NCBI GenBank assembly: GCA_027314645.1
Contig: DAHVAL010000010.1
Coordinates: forward strand, 1 to 64,000
Direction of reading: 5' to 3'
Source: Nitrospirota bacterium
Lineage (GTDB): Bacteria > Nitrospirota > Leptospirillia > Leptospirillales > Leptospirillaceae
DNA: 64,000 nt
This document shows, in pieces, positions 12,365 through 62,780 of this stretch (its first letter is position 1; each line of letters opens with the position of its first letter). The translations under genes and the position numbers were made by a program. The notes under the pieces were generated by a model. That model did not search any database. It was not told the DNA's origin and worked only from the letters and a program-made list of their open reading frames with translations.

Positions 12365-13007
12365 ACTTCCCCGCATTCACGTGGTGGGGATCGAGCCGGA
12401 AGGTCCCGACCCGGACAGGCCGCCGCTTTCAACCCTTTTGGGTGCCTGCCGCCTCCTTTGCGGAGGACGACGTCATCTCGAGGGCCTTTCCGGAAGGATC
12501 TCTCCCGGATCGCGCATTCTGCCTGTCACGACAAATGTCCCGGAAGTCGTGGAGGCCCTGAAGGAATTCCTCCGGAGGGGGGAGGAAGGGGTGGCGGTGG
12601 TGCTTGCCACAGGGGACCCCCTTTATCATGGGATTGGAGGGCCGATTGCCCGAGAGATTCCGCGTGGGCACCTTGCCTTTTATCCGGCGACAACCCTTGT
12701 GCAGCGCGCATTTTCGCTTCTCGGGGAAGCATGGGAGGGGGCGCAAGTGGCGAGTATCCATGGGAAGAAGGAAGAACCTGCTCTTGGCCCGGGCCGATGG
12801 ATCTTTTACACCAACGGTCCGAAAGGACCGGAAATGTTGGTGGATATGGCGTTTCGTCAGAGGCTCCGGATCATGGAAATGATCGTGCTTGAAGAAATCG
12901 GCCTCCCGGAACAGCGGGTTACGACATTCGATAAGGTGGTTGTCGAGGAGATCCGGTCGCGAGAATTCCGGACCCTGAATATGGTTGTCATGACGCTCGA
13001 CCAATAG
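12357..13007 (+). CDS. cbiE: Cobalt-precorrin-7 (C5)-methyltransferase CbiE
   Basis: CbiE transfers a methyl group to C5 of the corrin ring. The 216-residue protein is a tetrapyrrole methylase: HVVGIEPEGPDP near the N-terminus, and VVLATGDPLYHGIGG as the SAM-loop motif. ATG 12357 overlaps the cbiD stop by 8 bases; the frame is open to 12336. In many bacteria CbiE and CbiT are fused as CobL; here they are separate adjacent genes. Confidence 0.9.
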   Translation: MSELPRIHVVGIEPEGPDPDRPPLSTLLGACRLLCGGRRHLEGLSGRISPGSRILPVTTNVPEVVEALKEFLRRGEEGVAVVLATGDPLYHGIGGPIAREIPRGHLAFYPATTLVQRAFSLLGEAWEGAQVASIHGKKEEPALGPGRWIFYTNGPKGPEMLVDMAFRQRLRIMEMIVLEEIGLPEQRVTTFDKVVVEEIRSREFRTLNMVVMTLDQ

Positions 13008-13021
13008 TATGGATAGGGAAA

Positions 13022-13639
13022 ATGAAAAATACTGACCGTCTTTTTGGATTGCCCGAAGAGGCATTCCGGTTTACTGTCCCAAGAAAAGGTCTGATCACGA
13101 AAATGGAAATACGGGTGCTCTCCCTTTCGAAGCTCGATCTTCGGCCGAATCAGGTCCTGTGGGACATCGGAGCGGGCTCCGGCTCGGTTGGGATCGAGGC
13201 GGCGCGCCTGGTGCCGGATCTGTCAGTATGTGCGATCGAAAAGGATGCAGAGGACTTTCAGTGCCTCCTCGAAAACGTTGCGACCTTTGGTCTCGGATCC
13301 CGATTCCGAACGATCCATGGAAAGGCCCCGGAGGCATTGAAGGGGGTTCCTCGTCCAGATCGGGTCTTTATCGGCGGGTCGGGGGGACGGATGGGGGATC
13401 TCCTCGACGCTTGCGTAGAGGGGGTCCCTGTTCCCGGGATTGTATGCAACCTCGCCACCGTCGAAAACCTTTCTGAAGTGCTTCAATGGGCCAAATCCAA
13501 AAAGATCGATCCCGATATTCTTCATGTTCAGGTGGGACGGGGGCAACCCATTGTCGGCCTCCACAGGATTGAGGCCTTAAACCCTGTGTGGATTGTGTCA
13601 TTGTCCCCCGACCAGGGAATGAGCAAGGAGAAAGAATGA
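13022..13639 (+). CDS. cbiT: Cobalt-precorrin-6B (C15)-methyltransferase, decarboxylating, CbiT
   Basis: CbiT methylates C15 and removes the acetate carboxyl at C12. This 205-residue class I SAM methyltransferase has motif I WDIGAGSGSVGIEAA, preceded by the CbiT-typical PRKGLITKMEIR. FIGGSGG is the conserved motif following strand 4. It starts 14 bases after cbiE, with which it acts in sequence, and its stop overlaps the cbiG start as ATGA. Confidence 0.92.
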   Translation: MKNTDRLFGLPEEAFRFTVPRKGLITKMEIRVLSLSKLDLRPNQVLWDIGAGSGSVGIEAARLVPDLSVCAIEKDAEDFQCLLENVATFGLGSRFRTIHGKAPEALKGVPRPDRVFIGGSGGRMGDLLDACVEGVPVPGIVCNLATVENLSEVLQWAKSKKIDPDILHVQVGRGQPIVGLHRIEALNPVWIVSLSPDQGMSKEKE

Positions 13640-14778
13640 CCGCCGTTGGGAACGAAGGAAATGCAAGGAAGACCGCTGTTGTCACAATCACGCGGCCCGG
13701 CCTCGTTGTGGCAGGGAATATTGCGCGGGAGTGCCAAGCCGACCTTTATGTGTCCGAGCGATATGTTCCGAATATTCCGGAGGACTTGCGGTCGGAGGCC
13801 CATCCATTCGACGGCGTTCTCAAAAATCTCCTGCCGGACCTGTTTTCCAAATATGAAGGCCTTATCTTTGTCATGGCGCTAGGGATCGTGGTCCGGTCGA
13901 TCGGACCCCTCATCGCGGACAAAACAAAGGATCCGGCCGTCCTCGTGAGTGATGTGCAGGGCAAGTTTGTCATCAGCGTGCTCTCCGGACATCTTGGAGG
14001 GGCCAATAAGCTTGCCGAAGAGGTGGCCCGGCTCATCGGGGCTGTGCCGGTGATCACGACGGGGACGGATGTCTCCCAGAATGTGGCACCGGATCTAATT
14101 TCCCAGGAAATCGGCGCAGAACTCGACCCGTTGGAGCAGTTGAAGCGCGTCAGCTCAGCCATTGTCGATGGGGATCCCGTTCTTTTCATAAATCTTGAAC
14201 ACATTCCCATTCCCTCTCTTTCGGGGACATTAAAGCCAAACATCCTGAAGGCGTCGTCTCTCCCAGAGACGTTTCCCACTGTTCGCGCGGCGGTGGTGAT
14301 CTCGAGAAAGAAGTATCCGGCGCTTCCCCAGGGAATCGAAGTGATCTCCCTTGTTCCGAAGGTTTACGGTGTCGGGATCGGATGCAACCGCGGAACCTCC
14401 TCCGAGGAGATCACGGAGGCCTTGAAGACTCTGTTCCAGACCCATGGAATTCATCCCAAGAGCATCCGGGCCTTCGGGTCGATCGATCTCAAGTCGGATG
14501 AGCAAGGATTGTTAGATACGGCGTCCGGTTTTTCAAGGCCGGTGTTCTTTTTCTCCAGGGACCAACTGGGGACGGTCAGCGTACCCAACCCTTCGGGAGT
14601 CGTTCAAAAATTTGTCGGAACGCCGGCCGTGGCCGAACCTGCGTCGCTTCTCGCTCTCGTCCAATCCTCCCCTCCTTGGAAGGGCCAACCCCTTCTGGAG
14701 ATTGAAAAACAAAAGTCCGGGAATGTCACATTGGCTCTTGCCCGATGGATTCCTGACCAAACATCGTCCACGACCTGA
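13636..14778 (+). CDS. cbiG: Cobalt-precorrin-5A hydrolase CbiG
   Basis: CbiG opens the lactone and releases acetaldehyde during ring contraction in the anaerobic pathway. The 380-residue protein has the N-terminal CbiG domain (VMALGIVVRSIGPLIADKTKDPAV and VSVLSGHLGGAN-like block) and a C-terminal CobE-like domain (VGIGCNRGTSSEEI, then FGSIDLKSDEQGL). ATG 13636 has AGGAGAAAG before it and overlaps the cbiT stop; the upstream open frame lies inside cbiT. Confidence 0.93.
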   Translation: MTAVGNEGNARKTAVVTITRPGLVVAGNIARECQADLYVSERYVPNIPEDLRSEAHPFDGVLKNLLPDLFSKYEGLIFVMALGIVVRSIGPLIADKTKDPAVLVSDVQGKFVISVLSGHLGGANKLAEEVARLIGAVPVITTGTDVSQNVAPDLISQEIGAELDPLEQLKRVSSAIVDGDPVLFINLEHIPIPSLSGTLKPNILKASSLPETFPTVRAAVVISRKKYPALPQGIEVISLVPKVYGVGIGCNRGTSSEEITEALKTLFQTHGIHPKSIRAFGSIDLKSDEQGLLDTASGFSRPVFFFSRDQLGTVSVPNPSGVVQKFVGTPAVAEPASLLALVQSSPPWKGQPLLEIEKQKSGNVTLALARWIPDQTSSTT

Positions 14779-14789
14779 AAGAGGACCCT

Positions 14790-15614
14790 ATGACAAAAAG
14801 CTATATCACTTCATCCACCACCGGGAACGGAGGCACCTTGACGCTCGTCGGATTCGGTCCCGGCTCGGAAGATCATCTGACTCCCATTGCGCGAAGAGCC
14901 ATCGAAGGGGCGGACATCATTATCGGATATCGGACCTATATTGATCTCGTGCGGCCACTCATCCAAAAGAAAACCGTCATCGAAACCGGCATGACGGAAG
15001 AGATCGACCGTGCCACCCAGGCAGTGGAGCTTGCGTATTCGGGACAGAATGTGGCCCTGGTCAGTAGCGGAGATGTCGGGATTTATGGGATGGCGGGTTT
15101 GACATACGAAGTGCTGGAAGAAAAAGGTTGGACTGGCCGGGAGGTAGAGGTCGCCGTCATTCCGGGCATCACGGCCCTTTCCGCCTGCGCGTCGCTCCTT
15201 GGGGCTCCTCTCATGCACGATTTTGCCTCCATCAGCCTGTCGGATCTTCTGACGCCCTGGGATGTCATTCGCCGGAGGCTCAAGGCTGCCGCCGAGGCGG
15301 ATTTTGTGGTGGCTCTCTACAATCCCCGATCTTCAAAAAGAGTCCGGCAGGTGGAGGAGGCCCGGGAGATTCTGCTGGCCCACCGTGCTCATGACACCCC
15401 GGTCGGCATCGTCAAGAGCGCCATGCGGGAAGGGGAGGTGGTTGTGATCTCCACGCTCGATGCCATGCTGACCCATCCAATTGGAATGCTGACCACCATT
15501 CTCATCGGAAATTCCCAAACCCGCCTGGTGTCAGGCAGGATGGTGACCCCACGTGGATACAGGAACAAATACAATTTGGACACAGGGGTTCGTATCAAGA
15601 AGGAAAACGCATGA
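14790..15614 (+). CDS. cobJ: Precorrin-3B / cobalt-factor III C17-methyltransferase (CobJ/CbiH)
   Basis: This enzyme methylates C17 and drives ring contraction. The 274-residue tetrapyrrole methylase has the opening LVGFGPGSEDHLTP, the glycine loop SSGDVGIYGMAGLTYEVL, the VIPGITALSACASLLGAPL segment and FVVALYNPRSSKR. Some homologues carry a C-terminal ferredoxin-like domain; this one does not. It starts 11 bases after cbiG and overlaps cobO as ATGA. Confidence 0.92.
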   Translation: MTKSYITSSTTGNGGTLTLVGFGPGSEDHLTPIARRAIEGADIIIGYRTYIDLVRPLIQKKTVIETGMTEEIDRATQAVELAYSGQNVALVSSGDVGIYGMAGLTYEVLEEKGWTGREVEVAVIPGITALSACASLLGAPLMHDFASISLSDLLTPWDVIRRRLKAAAEADFVVALYNPRSSKRVRQVEEAREILLAHRAHDTPVGIVKSAMREGEVVVISTLDAMLTHPIGMLTTILIGNSQTRLVSGRMVTPRGYRNKYNLDTGVRIKKENA

Positions 15615-16153
15615 GCCAAGACCATAGCGTCTCTCCCTCTGGTCTTGTCATCGTCTATACGGGGGATGGGAAGGGAAAAACCACCGCAGCGCTCGGCATG
15701 CTCTTTCGTGCCGCAGGATACCGGATGTCGGGGTTGATGGTTCAGTTTATGAAAGGCCGGATGCATTCAGGGGAGAGGGACGCGGCCCAGAGTTTTGAAG
15801 GACGTATCACCATCGTCCCAATGGGGGAGGGATTCACCTGGGAGACAAAGGATGCGGCCCGGGACCGGCTGGTGGCCCAGCAAGCCTTTTCCTATGCTCG
15901 GAAGGAAGCGCTTTCCGGAGGGTATGACATTGTGGTGTTTGATGAAATCAACATCGCCCTTCGATACAATTATATTGATGTGTCCCAGGTTTTGGGGTTT
16001 CTTGATGAAAGGCCCAAGGGGCAACACGTGGTTCTTACCGGTCGGAATGCACCGGAATTATTGATTGAACGCGCCGATCTCGTGACGGAAATGAAAATGA
16101 TCAAGCATCCATTTGACAAAGGGATAATGGCACAGAAAGGGGTCGATTTTTAA
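15611..16153 (+). CDS. cobO: Cob(I)yrinic acid a,c-diamide adenosyltransferase (CobO/BtuR/CobA)
   Basis: This ATP:corrinoid adenosyltransferase attaches the 5'-deoxyadenosyl ligand to cobalt. The 180-residue protein has the P-loop TGDGKGKTTAALG at about residues 17-29 and the Walker B-like VVFDEINIALRY, both characteristic of the CobA-type family. It is the last cobalamin gene of the run. Genes for cbiL, cbiF, cbiC, cbiA and later steps are not in this window and would have to lie elsewhere for a complete pathway. Confidence 0.93.
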   Translation: MSQDHSVSPSGLVIVYTGDGKGKTTAALGMLFRAAGYRMSGLMVQFMKGRMHSGERDAAQSFEGRITIVPMGEGFTWETKDAARDRLVAQQAFSYARKEALSGGYDIVVFDEINIALRYNYIDVSQVLGFLDERPKGQHVVLTGRNAPELLIERADLVTEMKMIKHPFDKGIMAQKGVDF

Positions 16154-18358: not shown

Positions 18359-19402
18359 TTAAGGGTTGAAGGTCAGGGTATACACTTCGCTTCCAGGAGA
18401 GGGAAAGAGGAGATCGATCCGGTGGAGCCCGTATTGCTGGCCGGAAATGAGCGAATACATTCGGGCCGTTTTAATGTTGAGACCGGTGGCCCGGTGGGAG
18501 AACGGTCCGAGGTCCCGACCGAAATATTTCCGGGGAACAGGCGTGCCATCCAAAAGGACCATGACCGGAGGACTCAGGGTCCTATCCGTGCGCTTAAGGA
18601 CGGCGTTGACGCCTTTTCCATAATAAAGAACGGTCAAGGAGGATGGGGTCGAAGTCCCGATAGGAAGCGGGGTAATGTGGTCCGCCTCGGTCTTCCATTT
18701 TCCATGGAGGGTGATTTGCGACAGATGCGAAGGGTGCCCGGTGTAGAGGGCTTCTCCGCCGGGATGGTAGCCAGAAGGATTTCCCAGTTGGCCTCGGTCA
18801 AAGCCGGCATAGAGCTCAGGAGTCAAGTCAGTCCGAAAATCCGTCTGATCAGCAGAAAGTGCTGAAGTGGGGAGATGAAGGGCCACCCGGACCTGGTTTT
18901 CCAAAAGATCATAGCTCCCCTCGCCGATGGCGTGGTACACCAGATGGCCAGATGGGTCGTAAAGGTAGTCGGACGGCCAGTAGTGGTTGTGAAACCGCTT
19001 CCATAGAATGAGATTGTTATCCATCACAACCGGGAAGCGAAGGTGATATTGACGGATCGCGTCTTCGATCCGAGCCGGATCACCTGCAAAGGAAAACTCT
19101 GGGGAATGGATGGCCACGATAACCAGTCCCTTGGGGGAATATTTCTTATAAAGAGTGTTGAGATGGGGAAAGGTCCGGATGCAATTGATGCAGGTATAAT
19201 CCCAAAAGTCGAATAACACCACTTTTCCGGAGAGGTCTGGGGGCTTATTTGGTCCATTCGGGCCGAGCCACCCTGCATTTCCCTCAAGGGACGGGATAAC
19301 TGAGTCGGCTAAGCAGGAAAGCGACGGAAAAAGTAAAAAAAGGAAAAGGATCGGCCCTAACCAGAGAGAGTATCGGGGGAAGGACACGGGCTCATCACAC
19401 AT
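18359..19402 (-). CDS. Exported thioredoxin-like protein of the DipZ C-terminal type
   Basis: This 347-residue protein has a hydrophobic export segment (about 13-32), a thioredoxin fold with active site YTCINCIRTFPHL (CxxC, about residues 71-83), and a C-terminal domain of about 150 residues resembling the beta-rich part of DipZ proteins. DipZ proteins normally join this to a membrane electron-transfer domain of the CcdA type; that domain is absent, so electrons must come from another protein. It probably acts in periplasmic disulfide or cytochrome c maturation chemistry; this is inferred from the fold. The start may be ATG 19402 or GTG 19387. Confidence 0.8.
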   Translation of the reverse strand: MCDEPVSFPRYSLWLGPILFLFLLFPSLSCLADSVIPSLEGNAGWLGPNGPNKPPDLSGKVVLFDFWDYTCINCIRTFPHLNTLYKKYSPKGLVIVAIHSPEFSFAGDPARIEDAIRQYHLRFPVVMDNNLILWKRFHNHYWPSDYLYDPSGHLVYHAIGEGSYDLLENQVRVALHLPTSALSADQTDFRTDLTPELYAGFDRGQLGNPSGYHPGGEALYTGHPSHLSQITLHGKWKTEADHITPLPIGTSTPSSLTVLYYGKGVNAVLKRTDRTLSPPVMVLLDGTPVPRKYFGRDLGPFSHRATGLNIKTARMYSLISGQQYGLHRIDLLFPSPGSEVYTLTFNP

Positions 19403-19460: not shown

Positions 19461-19496
19461 AAAAAGGAAAGGAAGACCGATTCGGTCTTCCTTTCC
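19461..19496 (-). terminator. Rho-independent terminator of the first oxidoreductase operon
   Basis: A 15-base perfect inverted repeat (19466-19480 with 19482-19496) has a one-base loop centre. On the minus strand it is followed by a run of six T residues. It lies 40 bases after the ferredoxin stop. No T run follows on the plus strand. Confidence 0.85.
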
Positions 19497-19535
19497 CGAC
19501 CTGAAGAAGGTCCAATAAGCAAATTCTCTTGCGGG

Positions 19536-19820
19536 TCAGGGATGTTTTCCATCCCATTTCTCGGGATGAAATCCTTCCTTCGAAAGTTCGAAGGGAGATT
19601 CCAGATCGTTGATCATGATCATCTTGATGGCGTGATGCTTCGCCAAATCATCGCAGATACCCACGCAGATTTCGCATCCCTTGCAGCGGTCGACGGCCAC
19701 GAATGCGGTCTTGGCAGCATTGTCGTAGAGAATGGTGTTCGCTTCCGGGCAATACTGCGTGCAGAGCCGGCAAGCGGTTTCACTGCAGATGGCTTGATCA
19801 ATATGAGCAACAAGATACAA
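19536..19820 (-). CDS. 4Fe-4S ferredoxin-type subunit of 2-oxoacid:ferredoxin oxidoreductase (operon 1)
   Basis: This 94-residue protein carries two cluster motifs. The second is a canonical CKGCEICVGIC; the first is spaced C-x4-C-x2-C-x3-CP rather than C-x2-C-x2-C-x3-CP. About 25 residues follow the second cluster. As last gene of the operon it probably carries electrons to or from the oxidoreductase, as the delta subunit does in other four- and five-subunit enzymes. TTG 19820 is preceded by GGAG at seven bases. A paralogue of 70 residues ends the second operon (62568-62780). Confidence 0.85.
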   Translation of the reverse strand: MYLVAHIDQAICSETACRLCTQYCPEANTILYDNAAKTAFVAVDRCKGCEICVGICDDLAKHHAIKMIMINDLESPFELSKEGFHPEKWDGKHP

Positions 19821-19843: not shown

Positions 19844-20536
19844 TCAGACCGACGCTTTTTGAGGGGTCGCCGCCCATCCGTGGTCATTGGCGTATTGGTA
19901 AGCGGCCGCAATCACCGACATATTGCTTTTGAGAAGTTGTTCTTTTTTCGCGAACTTCTTCTCGATGACGTTGTCCAGAGCGGCCGTTCCTCCCGACACG
20001 ACGAATCCTTTTCCGAGAAATCGCTCCCGAACCGATTGTTCGAGCGACGGCATGTCCGGAATTCCAAGAATGGAGGCAATCGCGCCTACCATGGCCATGT
20101 TGGTGGCTAAATCAGTGCCGCCAATTTCCCGCGCCATGGTCGTTGCGGGAAGATAGTAAATCCGGGCCTCCCGCTCCTTAAGCTCCCGAACTTCATCCGG
20201 CTGAAGATTGATCGGGGTATCGGCGTTGATCAGGACCACTCCATTTTGTTTCAGCCCCGAATAAAACGGCATCGTGTAGGATTTCCCGTGGGTGATGACC
20301 TGCGGGTGAAAAATCATGATGACATTGGGATAGATGATCTCCCCGATTTCATAAATCCGGTCGATGGCAATGCGGACATAGGATTCCACAGGGGCCATTC
20401 TTTTCTCGGACCCGAAAAAGGGAACCAGGGTGCTCTCTCCGCCGCTGATGACCATTCCGTTGCTGAGGATGTGGGAGGCTGTCACGACGCCCTGTCCACC
20501 AATTCCCGCCATACGAATGTTGTACCTTTTGAGCAT
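19844..20536 (-). CDS. 2-oxoacid:ferredoxin oxidoreductase gamma subunit (operon 1)
   Basis: The gamma subunit helps bind coenzyme A. The 230-residue protein begins with the family motif MAGIGGQGVVTASHIL and continues through FFGSEKRMAPVESYVRI. ATG 20536 has AAGGAG seven bases upstream; the open frame upstream is not gamma-like. It is clearly homologous to the product at 61841-62533, sharing for example HPQVIT.GKSYTMPFYSG. Whether the whole enzyme uses pyruvate or 2-oxoglutarate is not decided by this subunit. Confidence 0.9.
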   Translation of the reverse strand: MLKRYNIRMAGIGGQGVVTASHILSNGMVISGGESTLVPFFGSEKRMAPVESYVRIAIDRIYEIGEIIYPNVIMIFHPQVITHGKSYTMPFYSGLKQNGVVLINADTPINLQPDEVRELKEREARIYYLPATTMAREIGGTDLATNMAMVGAIASILGIPDMPSLEQSVRERFLGKGFVVSGGTAALDNVIEKKFAKKEQLLKSNMSVIAAAYQYANDHGWAATPQKASV

Positions 20537-20591
20537 GAGACTTCTCCTTGAAGAGGGGACCGTTCCCGGCCCCTTCCGATTGAGGTATTCC

Positions 20592-21455
20592 CTACTTCTT
20601 GACCTTTTTTGCGGGTTCGATCGACTCGAGATAGGCCTTGGCCTCGTCGGAGATGATCTCCATGAACCCATACCGCTTGGATTCGATGTCCCGGGCGTCA
20701 TCCATGACCTTCGGAGTCGGAATCGCATATTCGATGTTGCAAGAAGTGTACGCCTGGATGAAGGTTGGGCCGACTTCCCGGGCGATCAAGACGGCCTTGC
20801 GCACAACTGAGGCAACTCGGGTCGGGTTCGTCGGGGTGAGCCGAGCGATATAGGCCACTCCCGAAGTCTGGGCCAAGCCGATCATGTCCATCTTGTCGAA
20901 CATTTTTCCTTTGGGGGCCATCTTCAAAAGGGCTCCCCGTTCGGTCATGCCACTTTCCTGGCCACCGGTATTTCCATAGACCTCGTTGTCGAGCATGATG
21001 GTGGTAAAGCGTTCCTTTCTGAACCAGGAATGCATCACGCCGCTGAATCCGATATCGGCAAGCCCGCCATCCCCGGCCATGACCACCACATCCTTGGCTT
21101 GATCCTTGAACCTGATTTCAAGTCCCCGCTTGAGGCCGGAGGCGACCGCATTGGTATCTCCATAGTTCCCGTAAATGAATGGAATGGAGGTCTGGGTCAA
21201 CGCCAGACGACCGCAACCCGCCGTCCCGATCAAAATGGTATGTTCTGGATTTGGGAGGCCCACCATGGTAAGCCGGATAAACAGCGTCATGGCACAACCG
21301 GCACACATTGGGTGTTCTTCGAGTACCTCCTTGAAGGATCCCATCTCGGAGACCTTCTTCTGTTTCCCGTAAGGTCCACGCTCCACAAGATCCTGATATT
21401 CCTTGGTCATGTATTTTTCCCAGCCGGGAGTGATCGAAATATTTTTAAAACTCAT
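20592..21455 (-). CDS. 2-oxoacid:ferredoxin oxidoreductase beta subunit (operon 1)
   Basis: The beta subunit binds thiamine diphosphate. In the 287-residue protein the TPP motif runs from AGDGGLADIGFSGVMHS to DNEVYGNTGGQESG, and the CAGC pair near residue 55 matches the family's cluster/TPP region. ATG 21455 with GGAG six bases upstream is preferred to ATG 21467. The YGNTGGQ motif is intermediate between pyruvate (Y-x-NTGGQ) and oxoglutarate (YG-x-T-x-GQ) forms; I lean weakly to 2-oxoglutarate. The enzyme would fix CO2 in the reductive TCA cycle using reduced ferredoxin. Confidence 0.9.
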   Translation of the reverse strand: MSFKNISITPGWEKYMTKEYQDLVERGPYGKQKKVSEMGSFKEVLEEHPMCAGCAMTLFIRLTMVGLPNPEHTILIGTAGCGRLALTQTSIPFIYGNYGDTNAVASGLKRGLEIRFKDQAKDVVVMAGDGGLADIGFSGVMHSWFRKERFTTIMLDNEVYGNTGGQESGMTERGALLKMAPKGKMFDKMDMIGLAQTSGVAYIARLTPTNPTRVASVVRKAVLIAREVGPTFIQAYTSCNIEYAIPTPKVMDDARDIESKRYGFMEIISDEAKAYLESIEPAKKVKK

Positions 21456-21532
21456 CGTAGGCTCCATGTTTATCCAGGTTATTGGGGATCATATCTACCC
21501 ACCAGGCCCCGGCCTGGAAGGTGTTTTCTCAT

Positions 21533-22774
21533 CTAAAATGAAAATTTCTTTTCGGGGAAGATCGTCTGGAGAATCATTTCGGTCGGCATGGACATCCCGC
21601 CGAATACTCTTGGCCCTGGAACGATTTCCGCCGTTGAGTGCCGATAAAGTGCTGTGACAACTTCCCGGTGGAGCCACCCCATGTGATTGAACTCGGGGAT
21701 GATGATTCGCTTGACATTCTTGCAGGCTTCACGAAGTTCCAGGGTGGGGAAAGGCCGAAGGGAACGGACCTTGATGAGTCCGATCTTGGTGTTATGCTCT
21801 TCCTCAGCCTGGCGGACGGCCTCGCGGGACTGGGAGACGGCGCTTCCGGAGGCGATCAGCATGATTTCTGCTTCGGGATTCACGACCTCGATCAACCCGC
21901 CCATGTACTTGTTGATGTATCGGCGGGCCCGATCGTTCGCCGCCCAGACTTCTTGCTGCCAGGAGGCATGAACGTGATAGCTGATGAAGTTGCTCTTCTG
22001 GATCGGAGCATCCCGGGAAAGACGGGCCGGCGGATTTTCGTTGTCCATGGCCGGAACCGCTTCGGCGTACGGATTTCTCGGAGGAAGCTTAATGTCCTTG
22101 GAGGGAATGTTGACATATCCGCGGGCGTGGGTGACGAAGAATCCATCCACGGCCACCGCCACGGGAAGGGTGATTTCCGGACGTTCTGAAATTATGAAGG
22201 CTTTCATCGTGTAGTCGAAGAAGTCCTGCTGGTTCTCTCCATGGAAAAGGATGATCCCGGAATTCAGGAGATAGGCCAGTTCAACATTGTCCGGCTGAAT
22301 CGCCAGAGGGCAATTGACAACCCTGCACATGATCAAAAGGACGGCAGGAATGCGCCCTCCCGGCCAGGAAGCGATGACTTCCATTCCGCGCATGAGACCG
22401 GGTCCTGCAGTCGCCGTCATCGATCGTGCCCCGGCCCTGGAAGAGCCTGCGATAGCCGACATCACACCGATTTCTTCTTCCCCGCGGTAATATTCTTTGA
22501 CATACCCTTCGGCCCAAAGGGATCCCACCTGCTGCATGGTTTCGCTTTGAGGGGTGATGGGGTAGGAGATGGCTACATCGACATTGGAACGCCGTATCGC
22601 CTCCTTCGCGGCTTCGGAACCGGTAATGAAGGCACGTTCGCGAGGGGCTTCGAAGAACATGTATTCGGGGGTCACGATCTTCTGGCGGTCCCCTGCGGAC
22701 AATTCTTCTGCCGCTTCCTTGATCTCCGCCAGCTTTTCTGCCGTGACGTCCTTAACTCCTGCCGAATCAGACAT
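21533..22774 (-). CDS. 2-oxoacid:ferredoxin oxidoreductase alpha subunit (operon 1)
   Basis: The 413-residue alpha subunit has the pyrimidine-binding TPP domain: SYPITPQSETMQQVG (about 70-84), the acid YRGEEEIGVMSAIAGSS with the family's catalytic Glu, TATAGPGL and the C-terminal transketolase-like domain with ASGSAVSQSREAV and IIPEFNHMGWL. A charged 45-residue N-terminal extension precedes the domain. ATG 22774 has GGAG eight bases upstream. It heads the alpha-beta-gamma-ferredoxin operon, driven by the promoter at 22938-22966 and ended at 19461-19496. Confidence 0.9.
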   Translation of the reverse strand: MSDSAGVKDVTAEKLAEIKEAAEELSAGDRQKIVTPEYMFFEAPRERAFITGSEAAKEAIRRSNVDVAISYPITPQSETMQQVGSLWAEGYVKEYYRGEEEIGVMSAIAGSSRAGARSMTATAGPGLMRGMEVIASWPGGRIPAVLLIMCRVVNCPLAIQPDNVELAYLLNSGIILFHGENQQDFFDYTMKAFIISERPEITLPVAVAVDGFFVTHARGYVNIPSKDIKLPPRNPYAEAVPAMDNENPPARLSRDAPIQKSNFISYHVHASWQQEVWAANDRARRYINKYMGGLIEVVNPEAEIMLIASGSAVSQSREAVRQAEEEHNTKIGLIKVRSLRPFPTLELREACKNVKRIIIPEFNHMGWLHREVVTALYRHSTAEIVPGPRVFGGMSMPTEMILQTIFPEKKFSF

Positions 22775-22985: not shown

Positions 22986-23597
22986 TCACTCCGCATTTTC
23001 GTCGAGACCTGCGGCAAGTTCATGCCGGAATTCCTCCGGAACATTGAGAGACCGGGTTTCATCCCATTTCCAGTCTGGGCGCTGTTGATTGTTGACCTTT
23101 TCAAGGTGTTCCTGATGGGCACGGCCTTCAGCGGAATGACCCCAGGGAGAAACATGTTTTTCCGAAATCGTCTTTTCAATTTGTAAAATTAGTGCCTCGA
23201 GCCGCTCATGGTTCCGGACATCCACCCGATGATGGGCTTTAAGGGGCCTGTCCTGCTCGTCGAGAACCACGACAAGGCCTTCCTGGCTGCGTTCTGCATC
23301 CAGATGCTCGAGAACCAATTCGAGACGTGATTGGGGAATCCCCGCCAAAATGGAGATTCCCGGGGAAAAAGACATCGAGTCGAGGGCCTTCCAATCCGGA
23401 ATGTGAGCCTGGTCCATTCCTGGGACGCTCTTCCGAAGCCGGGAAAGAAGCCTATTCCGGACGGGATCCTGGTCGTTCCATCCCCATCGTTGACTTGAAC
23501 CAAGGTAGAGGGTGGGCTTCTCCCGCGTGAGTATGTCTCGGGCCAATGCCTCTAATCCGGCCTGATCGCCCGATTTGTCAGAGTGTGCATGTGTCAT
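22986..23597 (-). CDS. Hypothetical protein, about 203 residues
   Basis: I do not recognise this protein. It is soluble, with no signal or membrane segment. Alternating helix/strand segments include TLYLGSSQRWGWNDQDPV, a VVVLDEQDRPLKAHHRVDV segment and a His/Glu-rich C-terminus. ATG 23597 has GGAGG about ten bases upstream; the frame is open to ATG 23663, which lacks a ribosome binding site. It lies between the hyf-like operon and oxidoreductase operon 1 on the same strand, about 90 to 150 bases after the NuoB-like gene, so it may be cotranscribed with the membrane complex. Confidence 0.6.
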   Translation of the reverse strand: MTHAHSDKSGDQAGLEALARDILTREKPTLYLGSSQRWGWNDQDPVRNRLLSRLRKSVPGMDQAHIPDWKALDSMSFSPGISILAGIPQSRLELVLEHLDAERSQEGLVVVLDEQDRPLKAHHRVDVRNHERLEALILQIEKTISEKHVSPWGHSAEGRAHQEHLEKVNNQQRPDWKWDETRSLNVPEEFRHELAAGLDENAE

Positions 23598-23751
23598 GGA
23601 CGGTTGGCCTCCTCCCTGCCAATTGTGGTGGACTACTCTTAAAATATGTGCTGGTGCTGCCATGGTCGGGTCAAAAAAGTGTGTCCTTTGATCCTACGAC
23701 GGGTTTGGATTGAACGCAAGCCGGGGGAAAGAGCTGACCAGGATCGAGGGT

Positions 23752-24234
23752 TCAAGTCCGGGCGAAGGCCTTTCGGAGGATATTGAGTATGTCCTGCGGG
23801 GTTGGTGGGCATCCTGGGACTTTTGCATCGGGAGTCAAAACGACCTCGAGACCCCCCAAGACCGCATAACTTCCCGCAAAGACTCCTCCGTCACAGGCGC
23901 AATCACCGATGGCGATCACCCGGCGTGGGTTGGGAACGGCTTCCTGGGTCTTAAGGAGAGCCTCATGCATCGCGTGGGTGATCGGACCCGTCACTAAAAG
24001 GGCGTCTGCATGTCGGGGGGAGGCGACAAACTTGATTCCTTGGGAAGAGGCGGAGTAATAGGGATTTTCCAGTGCCCAGAGTTCAAGCTCGCACCCATTG
24101 CAGGAGCCAGCGTCGACATGCCGGACCGCAAGGCTTTTCGAAAATGCCGTCCGTTGAAATTCTTTCTCGTCTCTGTGGGAGGGCTTTTCCGTCAAGATTC
24201 CGGTTTTAATTATTTTTTTTAGCAGTTTCCACAT
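23752..24234 (-). CDS. hyfI: Hyf/NuoB-like small subunit of an energy-converting hydrogenase-related complex
   Basis: This 160-residue protein belongs to the NuoB/HycG/HyfI family, which carries the proximal 4Fe-4S cluster next to the large subunit. Cysteine motifs are DAGSCNGCELE (about 42-52), IAIGDCACDGG (about 107-117) and VPGCPP (about 138-143), giving the four expected cluster ligands. It is the last gene of the hyfB-C-E-F-G-I run, 14 bases after the large subunit. With a large subunit lacking NiFe ligands, it would pass electrons in a non-hydrogenase complex. Confidence 0.85.
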   Translation of the reverse strand: MWKLLKKIIKTGILTEKPSHRDEKEFQRTAFSKSLAVRHVDAGSCNGCELELWALENPYYSASSQGIKFVASPRHADALLVTGPITHAMHEALLKTQEAVPNPRRVIAIGDCACDGGVFAGSYAVLGGLEVVLTPDAKVPGCPPTPQDILNILRKAFART

Positions 24235-24248
24235 GATTAAGGGGCTCC

Positions 24249-25814
24249 TTAAAGATCGTTGCCACTATAACTTAAATTGAAGGATTTATTGATCAACGGG
24301 AAGTCGGCGACCAGATTTCCGGGAACCGCCATTTCCAACGCCGGCCAAAGGATGGCGGACGGGTCCAGGTGGTGGGCAGCCTGGATTATTCCTCCTGGAG
24401 ACAGCCGGACCCAGGACACCGTTTCGCCCCGAAACCCCTCGATGATCCCGATTCCTTCAGTGATGTCCGGATTGATGGGAAATTCTTCCTTGATCACGTT
24501 CTCAGGAAAATGTTCGAGAAGGGCTCTCGAGAGAAAAAGGGATTCTTGGATTTCGAGAAATCTGACTCGGACGCGCGCTGCGACGTCCCCAGTGTGCGCC
24601 AGGGCCAGGGCAGGGGGGAAGCGGTGATAGGGGTCGCATCGGTGGCCGGATCTGAGATCCCATGCCTGGGCGCTCGCTCTTCCGACAACCCCTCCAATTC
24701 CCATCCGCGTGGCGATTTCAGGGGAAAGGATCCCTGTATTCTGAAATCGGTCCTGAAGCCCTCCATGGTCGTCATAGATCCGTTGAAGTTCGAGCACTTC
24801 CTCCAGCAGCCGTGCGATTTCCGTCAGGAGATCCCGAATGGCCGGATCGCCCAGAAAAATCGCGATTCCTCCCGGTCTCACAAGGTCGAAAAGGTAGCGA
24901 CTTCCGAAGTGGAGGTGGTTTTTTCTGAGAAGTTCTTCCTTGAGCCTCCCGAACTGGGAAAGGGCGAACGCCAAGCCCGCGTCGTTTCCAATGGCGCCCA
25001 GGTCTCCCAAATGATTCATAAGGCGTTCCCGTTCGAGAAGAAAGGCCCGCATGAAGCGAACACCGGCTGCGGGAATGAAGTCCAGCGCCTGTTCGACGGC
25101 CTGTGCAAACGCCAAGGAGTGAGCCACTGTTGAATCTCCGGAGATCCGGGCAGCCAGTTTCGCTCCTTCCATTATTGTCCGGCCTCTAAAAAGGCCGTCC
25201 ACTCCTTTGTGAGCGTATCCTAGTCGTTCTTCGACCCGCAGGATCTTTTCACCAAGGACCTGAAACCGGAAATGTCCAGGTTCGATGATTCCAGCATGGA
25301 CAGGGCCGACCGGAATCTCATGAATCCCCGGTCCTTTGACCCGGACAAAGGGGTAATCGGGTCTTCCCATGGAGGACGTCTGTGAGGAAATCCTGGTGCC
25401 GGGAGGGACGGAGAGCGGAGGAATCGACCAGTGGGCATGGTCGACCCAGGGCCTCTGGTCTTCTAAGCCGGCCGGAATGAACCCGAAAAGGTCCCGCACG
25501 GTCCTTTCGAAGCGGCTTGCGGAAGGGAAAATCCGGGAAAGACTCGGGTAGACGAAATCCCCGGCCGCATCCTTCCCGAGGGAAAGGACCATCAAAATAA
25601 GTCCTTCCTTGAGAAGAACGGACGAATAAATACGCGGAAAAGGGGAGGCGCTTGCCCACAGACCGAGGAACCGCCCTCCGGTGCTTTTGAGATCGGCGGC
25701 GTGCTCCAGATAAGTCGCGGAGTTTTCGTGAGGAAAGAAGCAGCGTGGAATTCCTTCTTCAAGCGGAATCAGGCAGAGTCCCCCGGGGGAAACGGGAGGG
25801 AGGGAGCTATCCAT
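24249..25814 (-). CDS. hyfG: HyfG/HycE-like large subunit lacking NiFe ligands (NuoC-NuoD fusion)
   Basis: The 521-residue protein has the HycE architecture: a NuoC-like N-terminal domain (about 40-150, with TVRDLFGFIPAGLEDQRPW) fused to a NuoD/hydrogenase-like domain (from HEIPVGPVHAGIIEPGHF onwards). In NiFe hydrogenases four cysteines bind the metal: two in an N-terminal RxCxxC and two in a C-terminal DPCxxC. Here the corresponding stretches read VEERLGYAHKGVDGLFRG and DFPLINKSFNLSYSGNDL, without cysteine. It therefore cannot be a NiFe hydrogenase; it fits the energy-converting hydrogenase-related (Ehr) group. It overlaps hyfF by 8 bases. Confidence 0.85.
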   Translation of the reverse strand: MDSSLPPVSPGGLCLIPLEEGIPRCFFPHENSATYLEHAADLKSTGGRFLGLWASASPFPRIYSSVLLKEGLILMVLSLGKDAAGDFVYPSLSRIFPSASRFERTVRDLFGFIPAGLEDQRPWVDHAHWSIPPLSVPPGTRISSQTSSMGRPDYPFVRVKGPGIHEIPVGPVHAGIIEPGHFRFQVLGEKILRVEERLGYAHKGVDGLFRGRTIMEGAKLAARISGDSTVAHSLAFAQAVEQALDFIPAAGVRFMRAFLLERERLMNHLGDLGAIGNDAGLAFALSQFGRLKEELLRKNHLHFGSRYLFDLVRPGGIAIFLGDPAIRDLLTEIARLLEEVLELQRIYDDHGGLQDRFQNTGILSPEIATRMGIGGVVGRASAQAWDLRSGHRCDPYHRFPPALALAHTGDVAARVRVRFLEIQESLFLSRALLEHFPENVIKEEFPINPDITEGIGIIEGFRGETVSWVRLSPGGIIQAAHHLDPSAILWPALEMAVPGNLVADFPLINKSFNLSYSGNDL

Positions 25815-27276
25815 TGGTCAATCCAATCGAATGAAGGGCCAGACCGTAAAGGCGCCCTAATTCGTGGGTAAAGAACAGCCCGATTAGGAACGCGAGGCCA
25901 AAGTGAATCCAAATCGGGTAAAAGGTGATCTTCGGTTTCTCATTCGGGAAGGAGAGGCTCCTTCCCGATTCGCCATTCATTTCCTGGATGCGGAAATAGA
26001 GGACTCCAAAGGTCACGATAATGGCCAGGAGGAGGAGTGGAAGGCTCCACGGTGCGCGCCTGACGGCAACGGACAGAATCAGGAATTCGCTCGCGAAAAT
26101 CGCGAATGGGGGGATGCCGGTGACGGCCAATCCTCCAATCAGAAGGGCGCGGGCCAGTGAAGGAGTCCGTAGAGCGACATCGCGGATTTCGGGGATTTTT
26201 TGAGACCCCGAGGTTTGAACGATATGTCCAACGACGAAGAAGATCGACGATTTGATCAGACTGTGAGCGGTCATGTGCAAAAGTCCTGCGAAGGAGCCCA
26301 TGGGTCCTCCGAGTCCGAATGCAAAGGTTGCCAGGCCCATGTGTTCGATCGAAGAATATGCGAATAGACGCTTGATGTCCTGGCGTTTCCACATCGACAG
26401 GGACCCAAGAAGCACCGAGAGGAGTCCGAACCCCATAAGAAGATGGGCGGTCAGGGGGTTATGTAATGATCCGTCCGCCAGGACCTTGATCCTTAAAATT
26501 GCATAGAGCGCGACATTTAAGAGCAACCCCGACAGGACTGCCGAGATGGGAGCCGGACCTTCGGCATGGGCATCAGGGAGCCAGTTGTGAAGCGGAACCA
26601 ATCCCACCTTTGTCCCGTATCCCACGATGAAAAAAACGAAGGCGAGCCCGATGACGGTGGGCTCGAGCGTATGTTTGACCGCGGCCAGGTGAGTCCAAAG
26701 GAGAGCGGTTCCACCTGGTCCCAGGGTCTTTTCGGAGGCGAAATAGAGAAGAATGGTTCCGAAGAGGGCTTGGGCGATTCCGACCCCGCAGAGGATGAAA
26801 TATTTCCAGGCCGCCTTGACGCTTTCTGGGGTCCGGGACCAGGCGACCAGGAGAACTGTCGTGAGGGTTGCTCCCTCCAGTGAGACCCAAAGGAGTCCGA
26901 GGTTGTTGCTCACGAGGACGACAAGCATGGTCAAGAGAAACACCTGATAGAGAGAAAGGTAGAGCCTTTGCTTTTCGCCCGTGAGATGTCCCCGGGACTT
27001 TTCAATGGCCATGTAGCGATGGGAGAAGAGTGAAGTCGTCGCCCCGATGCCTCCGGTAAGAACGATGAAGATTGCCGAAAACCCGTCAGCAAAAAGCTGT
27101 TCATCCAAACCGACAAGGGGGCCGTTGGCAAAGACATTCCAAGCGAGTAAGAAGGTTGCTCCGAAGGTGAGAAAGGAAAAGAGGATATTAAGTCTCGATG
27201 CGGCCTTGGTATGTCCAACGAATCCCATGACAAAGGCCCCTATCAGGGGGCTTAAGAGGATCGAGAGCAAAAACAC
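25807..27276 (-). CDS. hyfF: HyfF-like proton/ion antiporter subunit (NuoN/NuoM/MrpD type)
   Basis: This 489-residue polytopic protein is of the complex I antiporter family, with about 13-14 membrane helices. Features include LWVSLEGATLTTVLLV (with the helix-5 acid), FFIVGYGTKVGLVPLHNWLPDAHAEGPAPISAVLSG (the conserved helix-7 Lys region) and FAYSSIEHMG. It would form part of the ion-translocating membrane arm. GTG 27276 follows hyfE by three bases. It matches HyfF in size and gene order. Confidence 0.88.
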   Translation of the reverse strand: MFLLSILLSPLIGAFVMGFVGHTKAASRLNILFSFLTFGATFLLAWNVFANGPLVGLDEQLFADGFSAIFIVLTGGIGATTSLFSHRYMAIEKSRGHLTGEKQRLYLSLYQVFLLTMLVVLVSNNLGLLWVSLEGATLTTVLLVAWSRTPESVKAAWKYFILCGVGIAQALFGTILLYFASEKTLGPGGTALLWTHLAAVKHTLEPTVIGLAFVFFIVGYGTKVGLVPLHNWLPDAHAEGPAPISAVLSGLLLNVALYAILRIKVLADGSLHNPLTAHLLMGFGLLSVLLGSLSMWKRQDIKRLFAYSSIEHMGLATFAFGLGGPMGSFAGLLHMTAHSLIKSSIFFVVGHIVQTSGSQKIPEIRDVALRTPSLARALLIGGLAVTGIPPFAIFASEFLILSVAVRRAPWSLPLLLLAIIVTFGVLYFRIQEMNGESGRSLSFPNEKPKITFYPIWIHFGLAFLIGLFFTHELGRLYGLALHSIGLTNG

Positions 27277-27279
27277 GGG

Positions 27280-27951
27280 CTACTCCAGGGAAGAACTGTC
27301 CATATGCTTGAGGTCGAGGCTTTCAAAGGTTTCCCGAATCTGAAAAAAGAAGATTCCGAACACGAAGGTCCCGACAAGAACATCAAACGCAACTCCGAGT
27401 TCCACAACCATCGGCATCCCGTAAGTTGCATTGATCGCCGAAAAGAAAAGAGCGTTTTCCATCCCGAGGAATCCCAATAGCTGAGTCAAGGCTTTCCGGC
27501 GCGTGATCATCATGAGAAAGGAGAGAAGAAGGGATGCCAGGCCCACCCCGATCAAACCTTTGGAGACCGTGCTTGCGAGCTCGGAGATGGGGGCGGCGAG
27601 AGTGAATGAAAAAACGACAATTCCCAACCCGATAACCATCGTGGAGGGAACGTTGACCAATGATTCGACCTCGCCTTGAATATGGAGCCTGTTCATCAAC
27701 CTGAACAGAATCGTCGGCAGGAGGACGACCTTGAAGATGAAGGTGAAAAGGGCGGAAAAGAGAAGGTGGGTTTCGCTGGAGAGAATCGCTACCGCGAGTG
27801 TACTGGCGGTGAGGAGGAGTCCCTGAAGAGCGAAGATCCGGACAAGGGAAGTCAGGCGGCGCATTGCGAGGTTTGCGAAAGCGGAAAGGAGAAGGGCGCT
27901 TCCGAGCATTCCAACGAGGTGATTTGCGAGAAGGTGCGGATGAGGGGCCAT
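27280..27951 (-). CDS. hyfE: HyfE-like membrane subunit
   Basis: This 223-residue protein has about six membrane helices. It aligns in character and gene order with HyfE, whose N-terminal part resembles NuoK (LQGLLLTASTLAVAI region) and whose second half carries LGFLGMENALFF, which contains the membrane-embedded Glu typical of NuoK-like proteins. It would connect antiporter modules in the membrane arm. It starts three bases after the hyfC stop. Confidence 0.83.
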   Translation of the reverse strand: MAPHPHLLANHLVGMLGSALLLSAFANLAMRRLTSLVRIFALQGLLLTASTLAVAILSSETHLLFSALFTFIFKVVLLPTILFRLMNRLHIQGEVESLVNVPSTMVIGLGIVVFSFTLAAPISELASTVSKGLIGVGLASLLLSFLMMITRRKALTQLLGFLGMENALFFSAINATYGMPMVVELGVAFDVLVGTFVFGIFFFQIRETFESLDLKHMDSSSLE

Positions 27952-27954
27952 GGA

Positions 27955-28920
27955 TCAAACCTCAAGGACGAAGTGAATGAGGAAGCCTATGGAAGCAAGA
28001 AGATAGGCCAGGGCGGTAAATTCGGGAACCCGGAAGATCCTGAGCTTGGCGAAAAGTATCTCGACAATTGCCAGGGCGGTGCCGGCGGCCATCAATTTCC
28101 CGATAAGGAGAAAGATCCCTAAGATGACCGCGGGGGGACTCAACTCAGCGGGAAGTCCGGCAGGAAAGAAAAAATCAATACCGATCAGAAGGTAAAGAAA
28201 AAGCTTGAGGTGGGCCGACCATTCCATCATCCCTAGGAGAGGTCCGGAATATTCGAGAATCATCGCTTCGTGGATCATGGTCAGTTCGAGATGAGTGGCG
28301 GGATTGTCGATCGGCAAACGTCCATTCTCCGCCAGAAAAACCAGAATGTAGGCCATCAAGGCAAACATGAGGCTCGGATGAACCGGGTCGGAGGACGACA
28401 AAAGAGATTGGATGATTCTGGAGAGAGAGGTCGATCCAGACCAAAGGGAAACAGTGAAAAGAATCATGAGCGTTGCCGGCTCCGCAAGAAATCCAACCAT
28501 CATTTCCCGGCGAGCCCCAAGATCCCCGAATGGAGTTCCGGCATCCATCGCTCCGAAGGCCATCAGCATTCGAACAAGGGAAAAAAGTCCGATCAGAACA
28601 ACCACGTCGGCTACTGGTCCCAGGAGCGGGCGGATATTCAGAAGAGGGATGAAAAGGGCGCTCACCGAAAGGATTCCGAAAACACCAAAAGGAACCGCGC
28701 GAAAGAGGAAAGACGTGTGTTCCGGAAGGATGACCTCCTTTCTAAAGAGTCTCAGGAGGTCCCAAAAGGGTTGAAATACGCCCGCCGGAGTTCTGTTCGA
28801 GAGAACGGCCCGACATGTCCCGATCCATCCCGAAAGAAGCGGCGCCGTGAGGATCGCAAGAAAAAGATCCACCACGTCGACGGCGAACTCTGTCCGGAAA
28901 AGAGGATCGCCTACATCCAT
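27955..28920 (-). CDS. hyfC: HyfC/HycD/NuoH-like membrane anchor subunit
   Basis: This 321-residue protein belongs to the NuoH family, which anchors the soluble arm to the membrane. About eight helices are visible, with FWDLLRLFRKEVI near residue 52-64, AFGAMDAGTPFGDLGARREMM and LAENGRLPIDNPATHLELTMIHE, the conserved acidic loop facing the large subunit. It overlaps hyfB by 10 bases and precedes hyfE. Confidence 0.88.
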   Translation of the reverse strand: MDVGDPLFRTEFAVDVVDLFLAILTAPLLSGWIGTCRAVLSNRTPAGVFQPFWDLLRLFRKEVILPEHTSFLFRAVPFGVFGILSVSALFIPLLNIRPLLGPVADVVVLIGLFSLVRMLMAFGAMDAGTPFGDLGARREMMVGFLAEPATLMILFTVSLWSGSTSLSRIIQSLLSSSDPVHPSLMFALMAYILVFLAENGRLPIDNPATHLELTMIHEAMILEYSGPLLGMMEWSAHLKLFLYLLIGIDFFFPAGLPAELSPPAVILGIFLLIGKLMAAGTALAIVEILFAKLRIFRVPEFTALAYLLASIGFLIHFVLEV

Positions 28921-30959
28921 CGAAGCACCGAAAGGAGGAAAAGGAGTGTGACGAAACTGTACACAAGGTAGACCGAAATTCGGCCGGTCCTGACGCGATC
29001 AGCAAGTTCGGAAAATCTGACAAATAGTCGTAAAAGGGGCCGGAAGAGATAGGGCCAATGAGGGTCTTCGACAGAAAGCTCTAAAAGAGGATCCTTTTCG
29101 TCCGGTGCTGGAATGCGCCGTTTCATGGCAAAGAAGAAAGGGAAAAAATGTCGGATCGGTTGGCCGAAGGCATCCGCCGTATCCTGCATTCGAGGAGTTC
29201 GCACCGAATATCCGCATCCCCAAGCAGGAGACGTTCGAGTGGACGGTTTTCTTAAGAGGCGCAGAAGAACCCATGGAAGGGGGAGAGCGGCCAGGAGAAG
29301 GGCGAGGAGGAGGGGGGGACTATAGCTGGCCCCATGAGCCGAGATGGGACGGATCCATATCCATCCTCCAGACAGGAGAGTGTCCGGAAACACATGTCCC
29401 GTCAGTGACCTGATGACATGATTGATTCCTTTCAGAAGGGTGAGGGGAAGGGCCGCCAGAAGGAGGCATCCCCCTGCAAGCCACCCCATTCCGGTTAATT
29501 CGAGAAAGGACACTTCATGAGCCTTGCCGGCCTCTTCAGACCTCGGAATCCCGAGATAGCCGATCCCGAAGAATTTAACGAATCCCATTGCGGAAAGCGC
29601 GGAAGCAAGGACCAGGAGGGCTGCCCCCAAAAGGACTGCGCTTCTGAAGAGAGTGTTCGAAAGTATCCAGGCCTGGAGAGTAGATTGCAGGAGCAACCAC
29701 TCCGAAACGAACCCATTGCCAGGAGGAAGGCCTGAAGCAAAAAGGATTCCAGCCAGAACGAGCCCCCCCGATACAGGCATGCGTCGGAGGAGTCCCCCCA
29801 TCGCGTTGAGATCATTTGTGCGCGATGCATGGATTATGGTTCCAGCCCCGAGAAAAAGGAGGGTTTTGAAAAAAGCGTGGTTGATGGCGTGGTATAAAAC
29901 CGCTCCCAAGGCAATTTCGCCTGCCACGGGATGTCCCGATTTGAAGTAGAGTATTGCTAGGCCCACGCCCAGAAAGAGGATTCCAATGTTTTCGATGGAG
30001 GAATAAGCCAGTAGTTTCTTCGGGTTCGACTGCAGGAGCGCGTGGAGTATTCCAAATAAGGCCATTAAACCACCCGTCAAAAGAAGAGGGATTCCCCACG
30101 TGGCAGAGAGGTGATCCAACCCAAGAAGTCCGAAAAGGAGGCGGATAATGCCATAGAGGGCCGTTTTTAGCATAATCCCGCTTAAAAGTGCCGAGGCGGG
30201 GGTCGGGGCGGCGGGATGCGCTCTGGGAAGCCAGACGTGAAGAGGGATCAATCCGGCTTTGGCCCCGAATCCCAAAAGGACCAACAAAAAGATGAGGAAA
30301 GACAGCCCTGTCGAAGGAGTGCTTGTCGCCATGGCGTTGAATGTCAGAGATTCGAGAAATTGAACTTGGCCTGAGGGTTCCCGGGAAGCTAGGAAAAAGA
30401 AGCCCATCATGATTAGGAGGCTCCCAAAGTGGGCCATGAGAAGGTAGAGATAGCCTGCGTCCCGCACCTCTGACCGGTCTCTATCGGTCAGGACGAGAAA
30501 TGTTGAGAACAGGGCCATCGCCTCCCAGAAAATCATGAAAAGGTAGGCATCGTCAGCGAGGAAGACTCCCTCCATGGAGGCCATGAAAAAGGAAAGATTC
30601 AAAAAAAATCCGGGTTTTTTCCTTGGGGACATAGCATGAAGGGATCCTCCTGAGAACAAAAGGACTCCGGTCCCGGCACCGCCCAGAATCAGAAGGAAAA
30701 AACTTGAAAGCGGATCTAGGTGGAGATGGAACAGGAGGCCGGGCAATCCCCCCTCCACGGTAAAACGGTAGTCGGTTCCTGACAGAAGGGACAGGAAAGC
30801 GGAATAGGCGAGAAGAATGCTGCCAATGGAGAGCAGGAGGGCCAAGGGCTTAAGAAGAGTCTCCCGTTTCTGGAGAAGTGGATACCCCAATGCTCCGACG
30901 AAGATCCAGATAAAAAACACAAAGAGATTAATCGAGACAGGTTGGGGAAGGGGATTCAT
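28911..30959 (-). CDS. hyfB: HyfB-like antiporter subunit (NuoL type)
   Basis: This 682-residue polytopic protein heads the operon. It has the antiporter core with FWEAMALFSTFLVL, GAKAGLIPLHVWLPRAHPAAPTPASALLSG and LLAYSSIENIGI. The C-terminal third is longer than in simple NuoN proteins, as in HyfB/HycC, with a cytoplasmic stretch and a last helix. ATG 30959 lacks a ribosome binding site; a short open frame ends three bases upstream (see 30963-31103). The run contains no HyfH (NuoI-like) and no HyfA ferredoxin gene. Confidence 0.88.
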   Translation of the reverse strand: MNPLPQPVSINLFVFFIWIFVGALGYPLLQKRETLLKPLALLLSIGSILLAYSAFLSLLSGTDYRFTVEGGLPGLLFHLHLDPLSSFFLLILGGAGTGVLLFSGGSLHAMSPRKKPGFFLNLSFFMASMEGVFLADDAYLFMIFWEAMALFSTFLVLTDRDRSEVRDAGYLYLLMAHFGSLLIMMGFFFLASREPSGQVQFLESLTFNAMATSTPSTGLSFLIFLLVLLGFGAKAGLIPLHVWLPRAHPAAPTPASALLSGIMLKTALYGIIRLLFGLLGLDHLSATWGIPLLLTGGLMALFGILHALLQSNPKKLLAYSSIENIGILFLGVGLAILYFKSGHPVAGEIALGAVLYHAINHAFFKTLLFLGAGTIIHASRTNDLNAMGGLLRRMPVSGGLVLAGILFASGLPPGNGFVSEWLLLQSTLQAWILSNTLFRSAVLLGAALLVLASALSAMGFVKFFGIGYLGIPRSEEAGKAHEVSFLELTGMGWLAGGCLLLAALPLTLLKGINHVIRSLTGHVFPDTLLSGGWIWIRPISAHGASYSPPLLLALLLAALPLPWVLLRLLRKPSTRTSPAWGCGYSVRTPRMQDTADAFGQPIRHFFPFFFAMKRRIPAPDEKDPLLELSVEDPHWPYLFRPLLRLFVRFSELADRVRTGRISVYLVYSFVTLLFLLSVLRWM

Positions 30960-59700: not shown

Positions 59701-59718
59701 ACTTAAGGAGTGTCAGCC

Positions 59719-61825: not shown

Positions 61826-61840
61826 ACGAGGGAGTCATTG

Positions 61841-62533: not shown

Positions 62534-62567
62534 ATAACCATTCAAAGAACCAGGAAGGGTATCAAGA

Positions 62568-62780
62568 ATGTATAATGTGGCAGAGGTCAATGCGGAGGAA
62601 TGCGTGGCCCAGAAAGGGTGTCGGCTTTGTATCATGTATTGTCCGGAAGCCAACTGCATTCAGTTAGACACCTCGAAGATGAAGGCCGTCATTGTTGAAT
62701 CCCGCTGCAAGGGATGTGAACTGTGCGTCGTCGTTTGTGATGCGGCGAAACACCAGGCAATTAAAATGGTGGCCCGGTAG
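62568..62780 (+). CDS. 4Fe-4S ferredoxin-type subunit (operon 2)
   Basis: This 70-residue protein has two cluster motifs: the first spaced C-x5-C-x2-C-x3-CP and the second canonical CKGCELCVVVC. It is the counterpart of the operon 1 ferredoxin, with one more residue in the unusual first spacing and no C-terminal tail. It would connect the enzyme with the ferredoxin pool. A stable hairpin follows (62794-62820). Confidence 0.85.
   Translation: MYNVAEVNAEECVAQKGCRLCIMYCPEANCIQLDTSKMKAVIVESRCKGCELCVVVCDAAKHQAIKMVAR

Follow-up and report, generated by a model that had tools for sequence, protein, structure and literature searches.

The locus studied here lies in a 64,000-nucleotide window of a Nitrospirota contig (the whole stretch of DNA that was analysed), in which six co-directional open reading frames of the minus strand occupy positions 23,752 to 30,959, joined by overlaps of 8–10 nt or separated by gaps of only 3–14 nt (Table 1). 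An earlier note on this DNA had read these frames as homologues of HyfB, HyfC, HyfE, HyfF, HyfG and HyfI, and the family searches agree with it, given that HyfB and HyfF match the NCBIfam families “hydrogenase 4 subunit B” and “hydrogenase 4 subunit F” above their curated cut-offs, and that HyfE hits the family of the hydrogenase 4 membrane subunit, below its cut-off. No gene for HyfA, HyfD or HyfH is present in the operon, and a search with E. coli HyfH against the whole genome (69 contigs, 95% complete) returned only NuoI of an ordinary complex I, which is encoded separately in the same genome (NuoBCDE at least); the absence of HyfA from the operon and of HyfH, both claimed beforehand, is thus borne out, and no hyfH gene turned up elsewhere to complete a hydrogenase. 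By its predicted gene content, this is a complex of the known energy-converting hydrogenase-related (Ehr) kind, the same six-gene set having been published under the name ehrABCDLS (PMC6688271) and as the non-hydrogenase hyfBCEFGI cluster (PMC7735108). The Ehr assignment already proposed in the earlier note holds on gene content, on the loss of the NiFe ligands and on the retained cluster of the small subunit.

Table 1. Position and reading of the features at the Ehr locus and in its neighbourhood (positions are those of the window).
Feature	Position	Strand	Remarks
HyfB-like antiporter subunit	28911..30959	-	682 aa; NF005086 above curated cut-off
HyfC/NuoH-like subunit	27955..28920	-	321 aa; NADHdh family match
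HyfE-like membrane subunit	27280..27951	-	223 aa; NF008556 match, below cut-off
HyfF-like antiporter subunit	25807..27276	-	489 aa; NF005045 above curated cut-off
HyfG/EhrL large subunit	24249..25814	-	NuoC+NuoD fusion, 521 aa; NuoC/D family matches
Former N-terminal NiFe motif	25131..25148	-	RISGDS, vs RVCGIC in HycE
Former C-terminal NiFe motif	24255..24290	-	NKSFNLSYSGND, vs HycE IGSLDPCYSCTD; one residue before stop
HyfI/EhrS small subunit	23752..24234	-	160 aa; NuoB family match
225 aa protein between Ehr and OFOR	22986..23663	-	candidate OFOR delta subunit
OFOR alpha (forA-type)	21533..22774	-	2-oxoglutarate:ferredoxin oxidoreductase by synteny with Leptospirillum cluster 2; a neighbour, not part of Ehr
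OFOR beta (forB-type)	20592..21467	-	
OFOR gamma (forG-type)	19844..20539	-	start set from 231 aa relatives
OFOR epsilon (forE-type)	19536..19820	-	94 aa, ferredoxin-like; 4 kb downstream of Ehr
Intrinsic terminator	19465..19497	-	strong, 15 bp stem and T run; after ferredoxin gene
Second OFOR set (porABGE-type)	59710-62741	+	37 kb from the for set

The large subunit HyfG, or EhrL, aligns most closely with E. coli HycE (PDB 7z0s_E; E 4e-44 over 430 residues), and in this alignment none of the four NiFe ligands is present, as the earlier reading of the bare sequence had it: the HycE motif DPCYSC becomes NLSYSG, and the only cysteines of the protein (C14, C25 and C393) lie at no ligand position. 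Both CxxC pairs are gone in 104/104 aligned EhrL relatives, five of which carry a single cysteine at EhrL position 225, and the same alignment, applied as a positive control to true hydrogenase-type proteins from another family of the phylum (L174 and L175), recovers both CxxC pairs together with a 22 aa extension. In the place of the ligands there is a strict signature, RxSGD[ST] and a C-terminal NKSFNxSY[SA]GxDL, with D227, N509-K510-S511-F512-N513, Y516 and D520 invariant among the 104. Further Nitrospirota subgroups, seen beside the positive control, vary the first NiFe motif. Residue N513 occupies, in all 104 proteins, the position of the canopy aspartate of HycE (D529), which has been described as strictly conserved (PMC9474812). 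The chain ends at L521 in all 104, where HycE and HyfG of E. coli run on for 32 residues more, so EhrL terminates where mature hydrogenases do and has no C-terminal maturation extension. As judged from this conservation, the NiFe site of EhrL is replaced by a conserved set of residues and is not decayed.

The substrate-proton path of HycE, formed by E193, H284, R395, E437 and R478 (PMC9474812), is found complete in EhrL as E178, H268, R379, E421 and R462, again in 104/104, and the AlphaFold model of EhrL (pLDDT 82) has HycE of the formate hydrogenlyase (FHL) as its best PDB match (TM 0.87). Alignment with the genome's own NuoD places Ile177 at the quinone-headgroup histidine of complex I and Gly226 at its tyrosine, both in all 104 relatives. 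The kept proton path and the strict EhrL signature speak in favour of a third type of active site within the complex I superfamily, and they single out residues for mutation.

The small subunit HyfI, or EhrS, was said beforehand to keep its cluster cysteines, and it does: the four [4Fe-4S] cysteines C45, C48, C112 and C142 are present here and in 100/101 aligned proteins, the exception being a gap, and the CxxC spacing is identical to that of HycG. In the membrane arm, residues E146, K234, K314, H361, K365 and E420 of HyfB and E134, K223, K302, H338, K342 and E397 of HyfF are kept and nearly invariant among relatives, the antiporter Glu/Lys pairs being E146/K234 and E134/K223, respectively. 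The channel residues E139, E147, E198, E212 and E218 of the HyfC-like subunit are also conserved, and most members of the HyfC-like family have Ala/His where HycD has E199/E201. The predicted pump is retained, to judge from its antiporter Glu/Lys pairs and most of its coupling channel.

HyfG has relatives (E < 1e-90) throughout much of the phylum, and in a sample of them we read the six-gene module together with the same altered site; many Beta-, Gamma- and Alphaproteobacteria and some Acidobacteria carry the module too. Ehr has been reported in comammox Nitrospira and Sulfobacillus, with function unknown (PMC10284858; PMC4378227), a related set lies within Rv0081-Rv0087 of Mycobacterium tuberculosis (PMC6728331), and in Geobacter, where Ehr comprises seven locus tags (GSU0739-45), the proteins were found at higher levels under formate than under hydrogen (PMC7894505). 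A seven-gene version with two tandem HyfF-like genes (L063, 5559-8614) was observed by us as well. When the neighbourhoods of 103 Ehr loci were clustered, the commonest neighbour was a spermidine-synthase-like gene, adjoining or near Ehr at 15 loci in all (for example, L074 4026-4853 and L065 6020-6853). Parts of the EhrL signature may already be contained in the definition papers (Coppi 2005, Marreiros 2013); what is added here is the statistics of the signature, a natural absence of the six genes and a link to OFOR at the level of the genus.

Beyond the conservation, gene content and natural absence observed in these genomes, we infer the donor, substrate and direction of the complex as follows. 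Ehr would be an intact redox-driven proton pump with a soluble donor feeding EhrS directly, a reading that we favour over its rivals and consider evenly poised between right and wrong. A soluble low-potential donor, probably ferredoxin, would dock on EhrS at the place that HyfH takes in hydrogenases, and its electrons would be relayed by the single EhrS cluster into the EhrL pocket, onto a substrate that would be a small organic or quinone-like molecule and would receive its protons via E178 and the R462/H268/E421/R379 path; this reaction in EhrL would then drive protons through HyfC, HyfF and HyfB. The complex might work in either direction, by pumping or by a pmf-driven uphill reduction. Some points count against such a redox pump: the channel glutamates E199 and E201 of HycD are not conserved in the HyfC-like subunit; no recurrent redox partner gene lies beside the 103 Ehr loci clustered; and the literature examined shows an electron donor or substrate for no Ehr complex.

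A non-redox role for Ehr is possible as well, because the complex has one cluster and no input module. In that case, Ehr would be an ion translocator, non-redox or redox-gated, serving pH homeostasis, with the antiporter subunits acting as channels for H+ or cations and the cluster playing a sensory or structural part. The antiporter charges, all of them conserved, and the lack of an electron-input subunit are in keeping with this, as is the pH-homeostasis role suggested for the Ehr of Methylacidiphilum (PMC6688271); however, the invariant EhrL pocket and the hydrogenase proton path are hard to explain if no chemistry takes place there, and we regard the ion translocator as unlikely.

Downstream of Ehr, on the same strand, come the gene of a 225 aa protein and a four-gene operon for a 2-oxoacid:ferredoxin oxidoreductase (OFOR), which, by synteny with the order forABGE-orf2-orf3-porABGED of Leptospirillum cluster 2 (PMC2607301), is predicted to be the for set. 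Sister genera have the for and por sets in tandem, far from Ehr, so the two sets, lying apart here, have been separated in this genus. The 225 aa gene is present in 13/14 genomes of the genus and in 0/7 other genomes of the family. Its protein shows a weak CO_dh match in four of five members (best E 0.001) and a weak ACDS-epsilon/DHS-like fold (Foldseek E 0.004, from a low-confidence model), and since both are in line with PF02552, noted for OFOR delta subunits in the literature, we take it as a candidate OFOR delta subunit, as a lead only. An Ehr-specific role for this gene was considered and rejected, given that it remains with OFOR where Ehr is absent. A thioredoxin-like protein is encoded at 18359-19402, and similar-looking proteins occur near Ehr in sister genera (L047 6267-7337 and L048 2336-3376); further away, at 11258-16153 of the plus strand, lies a run of apparent cobalamin biosynthesis genes, named by sequence reading only.

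A natural absence of Ehr is provided by genome G086 (78% complete), in which all six Ehr genes are missing between conserved flanks on one contig free of Ns (L179 11533-11820): the alignment with a relative runs upstream of HyfB and resumes just after the HyfI stop, and the OFOR operon and the 225 aa gene are retained at the Ehr-less site. HyfB and HyfG were not found elsewhere in this 78% complete genome. This gap indicates that Ehr behaves as a six-gene unit and that the 225 aa gene is tied to OFOR, and it shows that the genes of a CO2-fixation enzyme can persist without Ehr. Because Ehr occurs across the family, it is likelier that G086 lost the complex than that it never had it.

The earlier note had suggested that the complex could reduce ferredoxin for the oxidoreductases nearby, which in its full form means an Ehr working in reverse, in which electrons of quinol or of another donor would be pushed by the pmf via EhrL and EhrS onto ferredoxin; the latter would feed the downstream 2-oxoglutarate:ferredoxin oxidoreductase, so that CO2 could be fixed in the reductive TCA cycle. 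Such an arrangement would suit the genus, where Ehr stands directly upstream of the for operon and co-directional with it in 11/12 genomes that have both (in the twelfth, the contig stops behind the 225 aa gene, which breaks the locus), and it would suit the transcription signals, with no same-strand terminator-like site listed between HyfI and OFOR alpha and a strong one after the ferredoxin gene; also, Rnf was not found in the host genome, and an organism that runs the reductive TCA cycle on a high-potential electron donor would have need of a device of this kind. In contrast, the linkage is seen in 0/6 sister-genus genomes that have both, the two being either distant from each other or on different contigs; many organisms have an Ehr that no OFOR adjoins; G086 keeps OFOR only; EhrL is just 60–71% identical within the genus vs. 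92–96% for OFOR alpha; and the residues that hold the quinone in complex I are missing. Ferredoxin reduction for the neighbours is therefore still a possible role, weakened by an adjacency confined to one genus, and the reverse Ehr appears to us rather improbable. The closest form of this coupling, in which the genus would have recruited Ehr as a pmf-driven ferredoxin reductase handing electrons directly to the OFOR of the same transcription unit, possibly via the 225 aa ACDS-epsilon-like protein, is a long shot; if true, the recruited Ehr would be a short electron line from the membrane to CO2 fixation without NADH.

That Ehr would be a sulfane-sulfur reductase catalysing at its cluster, as the MBS of Pyrococcus does, is very improbable: MBS is likewise a member of the superfamily with neither NiFe nor quinone ligands, but its under-ligated cluster results from a three-residue deletion in the small subunit and its loop glutamate is lost (PMC7684303), whereas EhrS lacks the shortened motif with three cysteine ligands and retains the HycG CxxC spacing, and the loop glutamate of EhrL is kept in 104/104. 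Finally, a real [NiFe] hydrogenase with its missing parts elsewhere in the genome can be dismissed almost entirely, for even though HypD and other NiFe hydrogenases are encoded there, all four ligands are absent, the HyfH search gave NuoI alone, and the sister genome G010 (99% complete), in which HypD was not found, keeps Ehr, so that NiFe maturation seems unneeded for this complex. The hydrogenases of the host genome are a full-length [NiFe] large subunit (G000:C11:110469-112076, with HypD on C11) and a second protein of the NiFe hydrogenase family that is more divergent (G000:C4:48124-49263).

Ehr complexes, for which no substrate is known, occur widely among environmental bacteria, and the absence of the six genes in one close relative defines their functional unit. 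Compared with the known systems, the complex is nearest to Ehr elsewhere, such as the hyfBCEFGI cluster of Acidithiobacillus ferrooxidans, sharing the same six genes without NiFe ligands or ferredoxin-type subunits and differing, in this genus, by its place directly upstream of a forABGE-type OFOR operon, and from the Geobacter Ehr by the latter's seven locus tags. With E. coli Hyf (hydrogenase 4) and Hyc (FHL), it has in common the HyfB, C, E, F, G and I homologues, the HycE fold of EhrL and the proton-path residues; unlike them, it has no NiFe cysteines, an Asn for the canopy Asp, no C-terminal extension and no HyfA, HyfD or HyfH. It resembles the MBS of Pyrococcus furiosus in superfamily membership, in its lack of NiFe and quinone ligands and in its proposed nature as a redox pump, and differs from it in its hydrogenase CxxC spacing, its loop glutamate and the lack of an MbsN-like ferredoxin subunit. 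Lastly, it shares with complex I (Nuo) and with the Nitrospira 2M complex I the membrane arm and the NuoB/C/D-type subunits, whereas its operon is devoid of NuoE, F, G and I and the quinone His/Tyr pair is replaced by Ile177/Gly226.
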